Assembly (NCBI GenBank): GCA_039944855.1
Contig: JBDUXZ010000008.1
Location: forward strand, 1-64,000
Length of the DNA: 64,000 nucleotides
Direction of reading: 5' to 3'
DNA from: Rhodothermales bacterium
GTDB lineage: Bacteria; Bacteroidota; Rhodothermia; Rhodothermales; JANQRZ01
Position numbers and translations under genes: made by a program. The notes under the pieces were generated by a model. It did not search any database. It was given only the letters and a program-made list of their open reading frames with translations, and had not been told where the DNA came from. Positions 4,237 to 44,917 of this stretch are shown piece by piece. How positions within the stretch are numbered: position 1 is the stretch's first letter; every line of letters begins with the position of its first letter.

Positions 4237-4671
4237 CTACTGCGAGGAGACCCGCCCCTCAAACGCCTCCCCGCCCGTCTCTGCTACGGGCACCGTCGTC
4301 ACCAGGTACCGCCGCACGAACACGGCCCCCGTCCGGCGGATCGACTCGAACTCCTCTTTCAGCGGCCCCGCCACGTCCTCGCGCAACCGCGTCGCGATCA
4401 CGTTCGGCGAGAGCATTGGCGATGCCTCCACGTGGACGACCACCACCGAGGGGTACGCCCTCAGAAAGGTGATCTCGCACGCCAGCCCCGCCGCGGTCGC
4501 GCGCATCAGTTTTTCCACCCGAGCATTCGCCGCCGCATCGGCGAAGAACGGCCGGCGACGCCTCGTATAGAAGACGAAGTAGTACTTCACGTAGTGGACG
4601 GCCCACCCGTCGTCACGGAAGTCGGGCGACGGCGGACTCGGTGCGGCAGGAGGATCGGACGTGGCTGTCAT
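4237..4671 (-). CDS. IS200/IS605 TnpA-like (Y1) protein lacking the catalytic HUH and tyrosine residues
   Basis: A 144-residue protein of normal TnpA length. It aligns by eye to IS200 TnpA along its length: HYVKYYFVFYTRRRRPFF near the start, SPMLSPNVIATRLRED where the family has PP.mS...lKG, and VFVRRYLVTTVP where the family has W.rGYfv.TvG. The His-hydrophobic-His site expected just before the SP dipeptide is replaced by Val residues (PSVVVVHVEASP). The C-terminal helix that should carry the nucleophilic Tyr (as in IS200 QDYIKHQ) has none (EAFEGRVSSQ). The reading frame is otherwise uninterrupted, so this looks like a maintained but non-transposing nucleic-acid-binding protein, not decay. 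It is divergent from repA, with a perfect inverted repeat between them. The start at 4671 is the ATG giving family length. Confidence 0.72.
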   Translation of the reverse strand: MTATSDPPAAPSPPSPDFRDDGWAVHYVKYYFVFYTRRRRPFFADAAANARVEKLMRATAAGLACEITFLRAYPSVVVVHVEASPMLSPNVIATRLREDVAGPLKEEFESIRRTGAVFVRRYLVTTVPVAETGGEAFEGRVSSQ

Positions 4672-4775: not shown

Positions 4776-4802
4776 TTGTCAAACAACTTATTTGTTTGAC
4801 AA
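4776..4802. promoter_or_regulatory. Perfect 11-bp inverted repeat between the TnpA-like gene and repA
   Basis: Left arm TTGTCAAACAA, 5-nt centre CTTAT, right arm TTGTTTGACAA. It lies in the AT-richest part of the divergent gap between the TnpA-like gene and repA. The right arm contains a TTGACA hexamer and is followed about 20 nt later by TACCTTTC, which resembles the Bacteroidota -7 element TAnnTTTG, so it may overlap the repA promoter. A second copy with the same 27-bp geometry occurs at 51947-51973. An operator controlling repA, or a hairpin bound by the neighbouring TnpA-like protein, are the readings I favour. The rest of 4672-5044 shows nothing else. Confidence 0.65.
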
Positions 4803-5044
4803 AAATTACCGACCACTCCTTACCTTTCCCCGACCGGCTCTCACGACGAGCCGGGGGCGGTTCGCCGCATGGCCCTGTCATCACAGCGCGGCCGAACTCC
4901 TCGTCGTAAGGAGTCCGACCTCGATTCCATCCACGTCGGGACCCCGAGTCCAGCGACGGTCCGCCGAACGAGCCCTCCGGGATAGGTCGCAGCGGAGGGG
5001 ATGCAGGCGTCGCAGGGTGAGGGTCCGCCTCTACCCCTTCGACC

Positions 5045-6163
5045 ATGAGCCGCCTCTCCCACGTCGGCGACCGCTCCGCCGCCGGACGCGAACCCGCACG
5101 CGCCGCCGACACCCGTAAGGCGAACCGGACCCGCCGCCTCGAACGCATCCTCTCCCTCGGTGCACGCGAGGACGGCGCCGTCGCCATGAACCCGAGCCTC
5201 TTCGTCCAGGCGATGCTCCCCCACCGGGAGGTCTACCTCCTCGACGCCGACGGACGCCCCGTCGAGGCCCGCACGGGGAGCACCCTCGCCGACGGCTCGC
5301 CCGAGACGGTACGCCTCCTCGCCACGCACTACAGCGCCACCAACGGCGAGTTCACCCTCACCGTCCGCGCCGGGATGACGAAGGGGCCGTCGGTCGCGCA
5401 CCCCCAGATCTCCCGCGGCGTCCCCTACGGCGGACTCGCCCGACTCCTCCTCTGCTTCGTCATCACCGAGGCTCGCAAGCAGGGCACCCCCTCCATCGAC
5501 CTCGGCCGCACGCTCACGGCCTTCTGCGAGCGCGTAGACATCACCCCCTCCGGCGGCAACAACGGCCGCATCCGCTACGTCCTCGACCAGCTCCAGCGCC
5601 TCGCCACCTGCGTCGTCACGTTCGAGTGGGAAACCGCAGGGCCGGGCCGCCGCGACCTCCGCGGCGAGAACGTCCTCGTCGTGGACGCCTACCACTTCTG
5701 GCACCAGGCCTCCAGCACAGCGCAGGACATCGGGGGATCGAACGCGATCCGCGAACCCGCCGAGGGCGGCACGATCACGCTCGCGGATAAGTTCTGGAGC
5801 GAGGTCGTCACGTCGTGCTTCCCCCTCGACTTCCGCAAGGCGCAGTTCTTCCGCGCCCACCCCACCGCCTACGACCTCTACCTCTGGCTCACCTACCGCC
5901 TCGGGAGCCTCCAGCGGCAGGGCCGCCCCTCCCTCGCCGTCTCCTACGACGACCTCCACGCCCAGCTTGGCAGCCACTACCGGACCGACGAGCACGGCGC
6001 GCTCACCCGCGCCGGCAAGAGCGAGTTCGGCCGCAGCGTCCGCCACGCCCTCGACACCGTCCGCCAGGCGTGGCCCGAGCTCGACGTCGCGACCCCCCGT
6101 GGCCGCCTCGTCGTCCGCGCCACCGGCCCCGACGTCGAGCACCGCCCGCCCCGGCATCGATGA
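5045..6163 (+). CDS. repA: Plasmid replication initiator, RepA_C family
   Basis: A 372-residue protein. The central and C-terminal parts match the plasmid RepA_C family: ISRGVPYGGLARLLLCFV, then LGRTLTAFCERVDITPSGGNNG, then FWSEVVTSCFPLDFRKAQFF, then PTAYDLYLWLTYRLGSL and a C-terminal winged-helix-like segment ending VATPRGRLVV. This family initiates theta replication of plasmids by binding origin repeats. The gene is preceded by a perfect inverted repeat that could be its operator. No iteron array was found in the flanking 400 bp on either side. The only clear array lies at 50885-51048, so the origin used by this protein is unproven. Confidence 0.85.
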   Translation: MSRLSHVGDRSAAGREPARAADTRKANRTRRLERILSLGAREDGAVAMNPSLFVQAMLPHREVYLLDADGRPVEARTGSTLADGSPETVRLLATHYSATNGEFTLTVRAGMTKGPSVAHPQISRGVPYGGLARLLLCFVITEARKQGTPSIDLGRTLTAFCERVDITPSGGNNGRIRYVLDQLQRLATCVVTFEWETAGPGRRDLRGENVLVVDAYHFWHQASSTAQDIGGSNAIREPAEGGTITLADKFWSEVVTSCFPLDFRKAQFFRAHPTAYDLYLWLTYRLGSLQRQGRPSLAVSYDDLHAQLGSHYRTDEHGALTRAGKSEFGRSVRHALDTVRQAWPELDVATPRGRLVVRATGPDVEHRPPRHR

Positions 6164-24180: not shown

Positions 24181-25968
24181 TCAGGCGGCGCAGCAGCTTA
24201 ACTGCCCGACGTCCTTCCGGAACGTGAGCGCGGCGAGCTTGACGGCCTCGGAGAGCGTGAGGTAGGCGTGGAAGGCGTCAGCGAGCTGCTGGGTCGTGAC
24301 GTCGTGGCGGATGGCGAGGGCGATCTCCATCAGGAGCTCCGACCCTTCGGGCGCCAGGACCCGGGCGCCGACGAGCCGGTCGGACTCTCGGTCGCGGATG
24401 AGGGTGATCGAGCCACGCGTGTCGCGGGCGGCGATCGCGCGCGGGACGTGCGCCATCGCGAGCGTCGTCGCCTCGGCATCGATCCCGGCCGCCTCGGCCT
24501 GGGCGAGGTCGAGGCCGACGCCCGCGAGTTGGGGGTCGGTGAAGACGACCCAGGGGAGCGCCGTGTAGTCTGCCTCCACCAGGGCCGCTCCCGAGCCGAG
24601 CCCTTCGCGGGCGTTACGCGCTGCGAGAGCACCCTCGTAGGCCGCTGTGTAGACGAACATCTTGTCGCCGAGCACGTCGCCGGCCCCGAACACGCCGTCG
24701 GCCGCCGTCCGGAGCGTGGCGTCGACAGGGAGGAAACCGCGGGCGTCGGGCGACACGCCGAGGGCCTCGAGGCCGAGGTCGTCCGTGTTGCCGCGGCGCC
24801 CGGTCGCGAGGAGGAGGTGCGAGCCGCGAACCTCGCCGGCCTCTCCGCCCCTCTCGAATGCCACGACGGTTTCGGCGTCCTCGCGGCGGACGGACCGGAG
24901 GGCCACGCCCGTGCGGACGTCGACGCCGTCGGCCTCCAGGTGATCCGTGAGCGCGTCACTGAGGGCCGTGTCTTCGCGCGGGAGGATCCGGCCGGACCGC
25001 TGGAGGAGCGTGACGGGGACGCCGAGGCGGGCGAACGCCTGGGCCACCTCGACGGCCACATACCCGCCGCCGAGTACGACGAGGCGGTCCGGGGCCGCCT
25101 CCAAGTCCCACAGCGTCTCGTTCGTGAGGAAACTCGCATCGGCGAGGCCAGGCACGTCGGGAACGAACGTCCGGGCACCGGTCGCGACGAGGACGGCCCG
25201 GGCGCGAAGGGTCCGGGCTCCGCCGTTGACCTCGACCGTGTGGAGGCCGTCCGCACGCCCCGCCAGCCGGGCGCGGCCAGCCACGAGCGTAACAGCGTCA
25301 TCGGCGCCCGCGACGTCGACGTACTTCGTCTGCCGGAGCTCGGCGGCGAGGGCGCGAACCTGGGCGAGGACGGAGCCGAAGTCCGTGACCCAGCCCGAGG
25401 TCTCGATGCCGTCGAACGCGGAGCGCTTGGCGCGGTGGACGGCCTCGGCTGCGCGGATCGTCGCCTTTGACGGCACGCACCCGACGTTGACGCACGTGCC
25501 GCCGATGGGGAGGCCGCCCTCGGCGTCGTTTACGATGGCGGCGCGCCCGCCGAGTTCACTCGTCTTGAGCGCGGCAGCGAACGCGGCCGAGCCGCCCCCG
25601 ACTACGATGAGGTCGTAGGCGTCGGGCGGGAGGTCGGAGGGCGCGGGCGGCTCGGGCAAGGGGGCGCCGTTGCCGGAGGGCGCGGGCGGCGCGTCGGACG
25701 GCGCGCCGTAGCCCGTGGCAGGACCGTCGCTCGGCGGAGCAGGCGGAGCCTCGCCGTCAACCGCGGCACGGTAGCCGGCGGACTCGACGGCCGCGACGAG
25801 GTCGGGGGGGGCGGCGGGGGCGTCCGCGTCGAGTGCGACGTCAGCCCGGCCGGACTCCCAGCCGGGAACGTCGGCCGAGATCACGCCGGGGACGGATTCG
25901 AGGGCATGGGAGACGTGGCGGGCGCAGCCGGCGCAGGTCATCCCGCCGATGGTGAGAGTAAGCGTCAT
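24181..25968 (-). CDS. merA: Mercuric reductase with N-terminal HMA domain
   Basis: A 595-residue enzyme reducing Hg(II) to Hg(0) with NADPH in the cytosol. It has an N-terminal HMA domain (GGMTCAGCARHVSHALE), a Pro/Ala/Gly-rich linker of about 45 residues, and an FAD fold (LIVVGGGSAAFAAALKTSELGG). The active disulfide is GGTCVNVGCVPSKATI, the NADPH fold is VVLGGGYVAVEVAQAFARLG, and the C-terminus ends SCCAA, the vicinal Cys pair that receives mercury. Start codon and upstream stop overlap by 4 nt (ATGA), so it is coupled to the upstream small mer gene. Confidence 0.95.
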   Translation of the reverse strand: MTLTLTIGGMTCAGCARHVSHALESVPGVISADVPGWESGRADVALDADAPAAPPDLVAAVESAGYRAAVDGEAPPAPPSDGPATGYGAPSDAPPAPSGNGAPLPEPPAPSDLPPDAYDLIVVGGGSAAFAAALKTSELGGRAAIVNDAEGGLPIGGTCVNVGCVPSKATIRAAEAVHRAKRSAFDGIETSGWVTDFGSVLAQVRALAAELRQTKYVDVAGADDAVTLVAGRARLAGRADGLHTVEVNGGARTLRARAVLVATGARTFVPDVPGLADASFLTNETLWDLEAAPDRLVVLGGGYVAVEVAQAFARLGVPVTLLQRSGRILPREDTALSDALTDHLEADGVDVRTGVALRSVRREDAETVVAFERGGEAGEVRGSHLLLATGRRGNTDDLGLEALGVSPDARGFLPVDATLRTAADGVFGAGDVLGDKMFVYTAAYEGALAARNAREGLGSGAALVEADYTALPWVVFTDPQLAGVGLDLAQAEAAGIDAEATTLAMAHVPRAIAARDTRGSITLIRDRESDRLVGARVLAPEGSELLMEIALAIRHDVTTQQLADAFHAYLTLSEAVKLAALTFRKDVGQLSCCAA

Positions 25969-41749: not shown

Positions 41750-44917
<3,168 letters not shown>

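Follow-up and report, generated by a model that had tools for sequence, protein, structure and literature searches.

The window, i.e. the whole 64,000-nucleotide stretch of DNA analysed here, codes for a 144-amino-acid TnpA-like protein which has lost, as judged by alignment, the catalytic residues of the IS200/IS605 transposases, and which belongs to a clade of similarly inactivated relatives encoded beside the plasmid replication gene repA. The domestication of this protein, its maintenance and its tie to repA are well supported by the comparison of sequences; nucleic acid binding, its target, the regulation of repA and the control of copy number are what we infer in addition. The best explanation of the whole, to which an even chance may be given, is that a captured TnpA now serves as a non-cleaving nucleic-acid-binding protein tuning repA expression and with it plasmid copy number.

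The TnpA length and fold motifs noticed in the first-pass annotation of this DNA were borne out by several approaches. The Pfam profile PF01797 (Y1_Tnp) matched residues 25-128 with a score of 32.3 bits (cut-off 23), the PDB search returned the solved TnpA structures 2ec2 (E 2e-6) and 2f4f, and the AlphaFold model, for which 12 homologues served as input, reached a mean pLDDT of 79.6 with a core above 90. The best 29 Foldseek matches of this model were all TnpA structures (Sulfolobus, IS608, ISDra2; E ~1e-7), followed in the ranking by E. coli TnpAREP (E 6e-3). Alignment to intact TnpA proteins (HVH, Y...Q) also agreed with the annotation in that Val residues (V76-V77-V78) replace the HUH motif and that the tyrosine of the nucleophile helix is absent, its position being taken by Phe137. 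Since Val141 is found four residues past the Tyr position, where intact proteins carry the Gln metal ligand, this alignment has the HUH motif, the nucleophile Tyr and the third metal ligand all lost. The same Tyr to Phe change was made in Y132F, the classical laboratory knock-out of ISDra2 (2xo6, present in the Foldseek list). Judged by its fold, the protein is a homologue of Y1_Tnp, but as it lacks the catalytic features by which active TnpA and TnpAREP are each defined, it is filed under neither. Moreover, active TnpA genes are expected in several copies with conserved ends; the gene studied here occurs once in its genome, and its relatives all lie at the same repA-linked place. The annotation had also regarded the clean reading frame as a sign of maintenance. 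While maintenance itself found support (see below), the frame means little, because the open frame around the gene extends over 331 codons as an effect of the G+C content; hence it is the homology that carries the case.

Table 1. Positions of the features discussed in the text (window coordinates unless a locus is given).
Feature	Position	Strand	Basis
Catalytically dead TnpA-like protein, 144 aa, Y1_Tnp fold	4237..4671	-	Pfam, PDB matches, AlphaFold/Foldseek
Phe137 codon, catalytic Tyr position	4261..4263	-	Alignment; Phe in 7/7 dead members and in the G180 protein
V76-V77-V78 codons, HUH position	4438..4446	-	Alignment to intact TnpA (HVH, Y...Q)
Perfect 11-bp inverted repeat, 5-nt loop	4776..4802		Exact; not conserved across loci
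Conserved leader element, ~120 nt, structured antisense to repA	4886..5006	-	Covariance model R1
Main hairpin of the leader (HP1)	4887..4923	-	~15 pairs on minus strand, interrupted on plus strand
repA, RepA_C-type replication initiator, divergent from dead tnpA	5045..6163	+	PF04796, 65.8 bits; RepA tree
XRE-type genes near dead tnpA	L019:9843-10151, L020:9701-9973, L021:10043-10351, L022:7854-8408, L023:8081-8641		

When 245 genomes of the class were searched, seven full-length proteins lacking the HUH pair and the Tyr were identified, that of the window included. They are distributed over six loci in five genomes; besides the window, these are G176:C10, G176:C11, G177:C191, G178:C10 (two genes in tandem) and G181:C11. 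An extra truncated dead tnpA copy is also present at G176:C10. All members come from one bacterial class, and most of the genomes are drafts. The dead relatives share 42-49% amino acid sequence identity with the window protein, as opposed to ~33% or less for the nearest intact TnpA, so that close homologues with an intact HUH and Tyr, looked for as a possible indication of recent decay, were not found among these genomes. The seven proteins are monophyletic (support 100/99), also when the catalytic columns are left out (92/98). At the two His positions the members carry unrelated residues (V.V, Q.I, H.V, T.T, T.L, T.L, W.R), with G178a retaining the first His but not the second, and Phe stands at the Tyr position in all seven. 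An HIH triplet of the G176:C11 member was considered as a possible HUH motif and rejected, as it is located four residues further on.

The sister of the dead clade (support 99/97) is a protein of genome G180, which has Cys-Val-His, Phe for Tyr and a retained Gln, and thus looks like an intermediate form. Its gene (L024:3551-4021; G180:C464) lies at the end of a 4.2-kb contig on which no repA was detected; the contig stops ~240 bases beyond the start of the gene. No relatives of the dead clade were found among described plasmids and viral contigs. The scan of genome contigs gave no match with the single window protein, and with the alignment as query it returned an intact Gemmobacter TnpA besides two loci already known. 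A 396-genome sample of the phylum yielded no clear new member; it gave two weak extra matches (G394 and G411).

The divergent arrangement of dead tnpA and repA described in the annotation was confirmed in the window and proved to be conserved: a RepA_C (PF04796) gene adjoins dead tnpA divergently at each of the six loci, a linkage to rep of the kind known for the regulator genes of CopB/CopG-type copy-control modules. The RepA proteins of these loci form one clade (support 100/99), every member of which is accompanied by dead tnpA. The latter is absent at 11 other RepA loci checked, namely that of G181:C15, the closest outgroup with 52% identity, and ten that are more remote (at one of the latter, G000:C8:78587, the contig ends at the gene). 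In G176, the gene pair is carried by two different plasmids of one genome, and the divergent linkage holds across 57-68% RepA identity, while the flanking genes vary. The sequence data are best fitted by a single acquisition followed by retention everywhere sampled; consequently, the six loci should not be counted as six independent events.

On the 79-kb contig of the window, ParA is encoded along with a ribbon-helix-helix protein and a second RepA, from which we infer that the contig is a plasmid. The second repA is only distantly related (L018:14374-15282; G000:C8:78587 to the contig end) and, together with the ParA and ribbon-helix-helix genes (L018:3886-5302), suggests a two-replicon plasmid. 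The metal-resistance cargo of the window includes a MerA-like reductase with a heavy-metal-associated domain and an AcrB/CusA-type efflux pump (24184-25968 and 41753-44917). Downstream of the repA of G176:C10, there are four 17-nt direct repeats (GAATAnnCGTnCGnCCn; L019:12372-12494), probably the iterons of the origin; near the window repA no convincing iterons, and none comparable to these repeats, were found. A frameshift and an in-frame TGA disrupt the repA of G178 (L021:10577-11824; G178:C10:80711-81797), with both tandem dead tnpA genes beside it intact. An XRE-type helix-turn-helix gene is located near five of the six dead tnpA loci, the window locus being the one without it; in three of the five it sits between dead tnpA and repA, and that of G178 has inverted repeats of its own upstream.

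All six loci (the window and its equivalents L019-L023) have in common a leader element situated between the promoter and the start of repA. In the 245 class genomes, the covariance model R1 of this element recovered exactly these six loci at E <1e-17; the other matches, some of them opposite-strand echoes of the same sites, were weaker than 1e-4. The model has one match in the window genome, and the element has none in Rfam. Its main hairpin, HP1, folds with -23.0 kcal/mol on the minus strand, antisense to repA, versus -12.7 kcal/mol on the plus strand, and the minus strand gives the better fold at all six loci. Across these loci, the minus-strand stems contain 16 G·U and 0 A·C pairs, so that on the plus strand an A-C mismatch stands in place of each of the former. 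The nominal p value of this strand bias (1.5e-5) is overstated, the six sequences being related and the stems having been taken from minus-strand folds, yet the direction is uniform. Such uniformity fits a countertranscript. Alternatively, the plus strand may be selected for mid-stem irregularities read by TnpA-type proteins, similar to the bulges of REP hairpins (PMC8266576); since the A-C mismatches are uniform and not mixed, the countertranscript is favoured. A terminator scan after the leader hairpin found none. The hairpin probably predates the association of TnpA with repA, because a distant repA without dead TnpA (G013) is also preceded by a hairpin that is stronger on the antisense strand. 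On its predicted structure, the leader element is a candidate copy-control antisense RNA in its own right.

One must bear in mind that the lost catalytic residues, the sole copy in the window genome and the truncated additional copy in G176 might all be expected of a decayed IS element on its way to loss. The substitution pattern points elsewhere: for the dead genes of G181:C11 and G177:C191, one close pair from two draft assemblies, dN is 0.067 and dS 0.34, a ratio of 0.20 (Fisher p 1.3e-8) and not the value near 1 looked for as a sign of decay. RepA (0.19) and the XRE gene (0.20) of the same pair give similar ratios. More distant pairs of the dead gene show ratios of 0.5-0.9, which were given no weight, as their third positions are saturated or constrained by G+C content. 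By these rates dead tnpA is under purifying selection in the close pair, and together with the seven full-length intact frames retained over deep divergence, the invariant Phe and the absence of close relatives with an intact catalytic site, this makes a relic highly improbable. At the level of the clade that reading is refuted, and recent decay of an IS copy is ruled out by the clade, the intact frames and the dN/dS ratio; the window copy alone could be in incipient decay. A maintained protein may still have a function other than replication, for instance in the host or in defence, and be carried beside repA merely as part of a syntenic plasmid backbone. The linkage does go back to a single acquisition, and the G180 intermediate lies on a contig where repA was not seen, although the end of that contig so close to the gene limits its weight. 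Such a passive association seems unlikely, however, given that wherever the dead gene occurs it lies near repA in divergent orientation, that this holds for both plasmids of G176 and over the whole range of RepA identities, and that the linkage stays where the flanking genes differ.

Another unlikely possibility, of about the same rank, concerns the palindrome between the two genes: a dimer of dead TnpA could bind it as duplex DNA over the -35 box and repress repA, perhaps along with its own gene. The perfect inverted repeat and its 5-nt loop are exactly as annotated (TTGTCAAACAA-CTTAT-TTGTTTGACAA). No other perfect 11-bp palindrome in the window is AT-rich, and as Markov shuffles produced 0-2 of any composition, this one is beyond chance for its composition. 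The right arm overlaps TTGACA (4796-4801), and TTACCT follows 18 nt further on (4820-4825); the two are likely the repA promoter, read by eye and absent from the consensus-scan list. Because of its overlap with the likely -35 box, the palindrome resembles an operator, at which RepA, dead TnpA or some other protein could act. In favour of dead TnpA, there is no XRE gene beside the window locus to which the operator might belong, and a related, though imperfect, repeat (GTCAAACGAG-cgct-CTCTTTTGAC) occurs in G178 at the equivalent place, upstream of the TTGACA of that locus. On the other hand, four of the five other loci have no such palindrome, autoregulation by RepA explains it equally well, and known TnpA proteins generally bind single-stranded hairpins and not duplex operators (PMC8266576). 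The annotation had proposed that the protein binds a hairpin at this very site. That claim is left unsupported by the absence of the palindrome at the four loci, its single copy in the genome and its position over the promoter, a double-stranded operator being at least as likely. As a conserved target the palindrome was likewise rejected, being unconserved and single-copy; the conserved hairpin is HP1 in the leader.

According to the explanation preferred here, an IS200/IS605-type TnpA would have been captured in a single event next to repA in a plasmid lineage, would then have lost its nucleophile and metal site and would have been kept since as a non-cleaving nucleic-acid-binding protein, which tunes the expression of repA and thereby plasmid copy number. 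Its target would be a regulatory nucleic acid of repA, with the leader hairpin, in RNA or single-stranded DNA form, as the likeliest candidate and the promoter palindrome as a less likely one, and it may limit replication together with an antisense RNA, as CopB and CopG do beside CopA and RNAII. Homologues of the TnpA fold bind imperfect hairpins in a strand-specific manner (PMC8266576), and two-tier control of rep by a protein repressor and an antisense RNA is a known design (PMC5717011). The narrower proposal, in which a non-catalytic hairpin-binding Y1 HUH protein controls replication by way of a structured RNA, or of a hairpin in single-stranded form, that is antisense to the repA leader, is put forward more tentatively, with somewhat less than even chances. 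At five of the six loci, the repressor proper could be the product of the nearby XRE gene. Of the domesticated hairpin-binding regulator of replication suggested in the annotation, a domesticated, maintained and repA-tied protein thus stands, whereas binding at 4776-4802 does not.

A large earlier census of the superfamily kept only the sequences with complete core motifs and took the others as probably non-functional (PMC6006769). By its pattern of substitutions the dead clade contradicts this as far as selection is concerned, though not yet as regards function: as it shows purifying selection and is tied to a single gene, a core-motif filter discards real genes. Domesticated TnpA proteins known so far (TnpAREP) retain the catalytic site that the dead clade lacks, and a search of the open-access literature gave no account of a TnpA without catalytic activity encoded next to rep. 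Should the protein indeed be a regulator, an HUH transposase would have been reused purely for nucleic acid recognition, in parallel to the dead TnpB repressors, and a new, directly testable kind of plasmid copy-number control would be at hand; if control is exerted through the hairpin, it would be the TnpA-derived counterpart of the TnpB-derived TldR repressors.

With IS200/IS605 TnpA (IS608, ISDra2, Sulfolobus 2ec2), the window protein shares fold, length and sequence family, but it is without HUH, Tyr and Gln ligand, single-copy and tied to repA. TnpAREP/RAYT proteins are similarly domesticated and TnpA-like, with no mobile IS and with a conserved hairpin nearby; they differ in keeping HUH and Tyr (PMC8266576), where the catalytic site of the window protein is gone, and in serving many dispersed REP hairpins, where the leader model and the palindrome each have one match in the genome. 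TldR is a nuclease-dead, RNA-guided repressor derived from TnpB. It is the nearest evolutionary parallel, since there too a gene of the IS200/IS605 kind lost its nuclease and was kept, likely as a regulator, albeit one derived from TnpB and equipped with a guide RNA, whereas the window protein is derived from TnpA. The nearest known design, by analogy, would be the copy-number control by a protein repressor and an antisense RNA in R1 (CopB with CopA) and pMV158 (CopG with RNAII) (PMC5717011). In both cases a small protein gene lies beside rep, the antisense RNA of the window being predicted from structure; there is no protein homology, however, and CopB and CopG are cotranscribed with rep, whereas dead tnpA is divergent from it.
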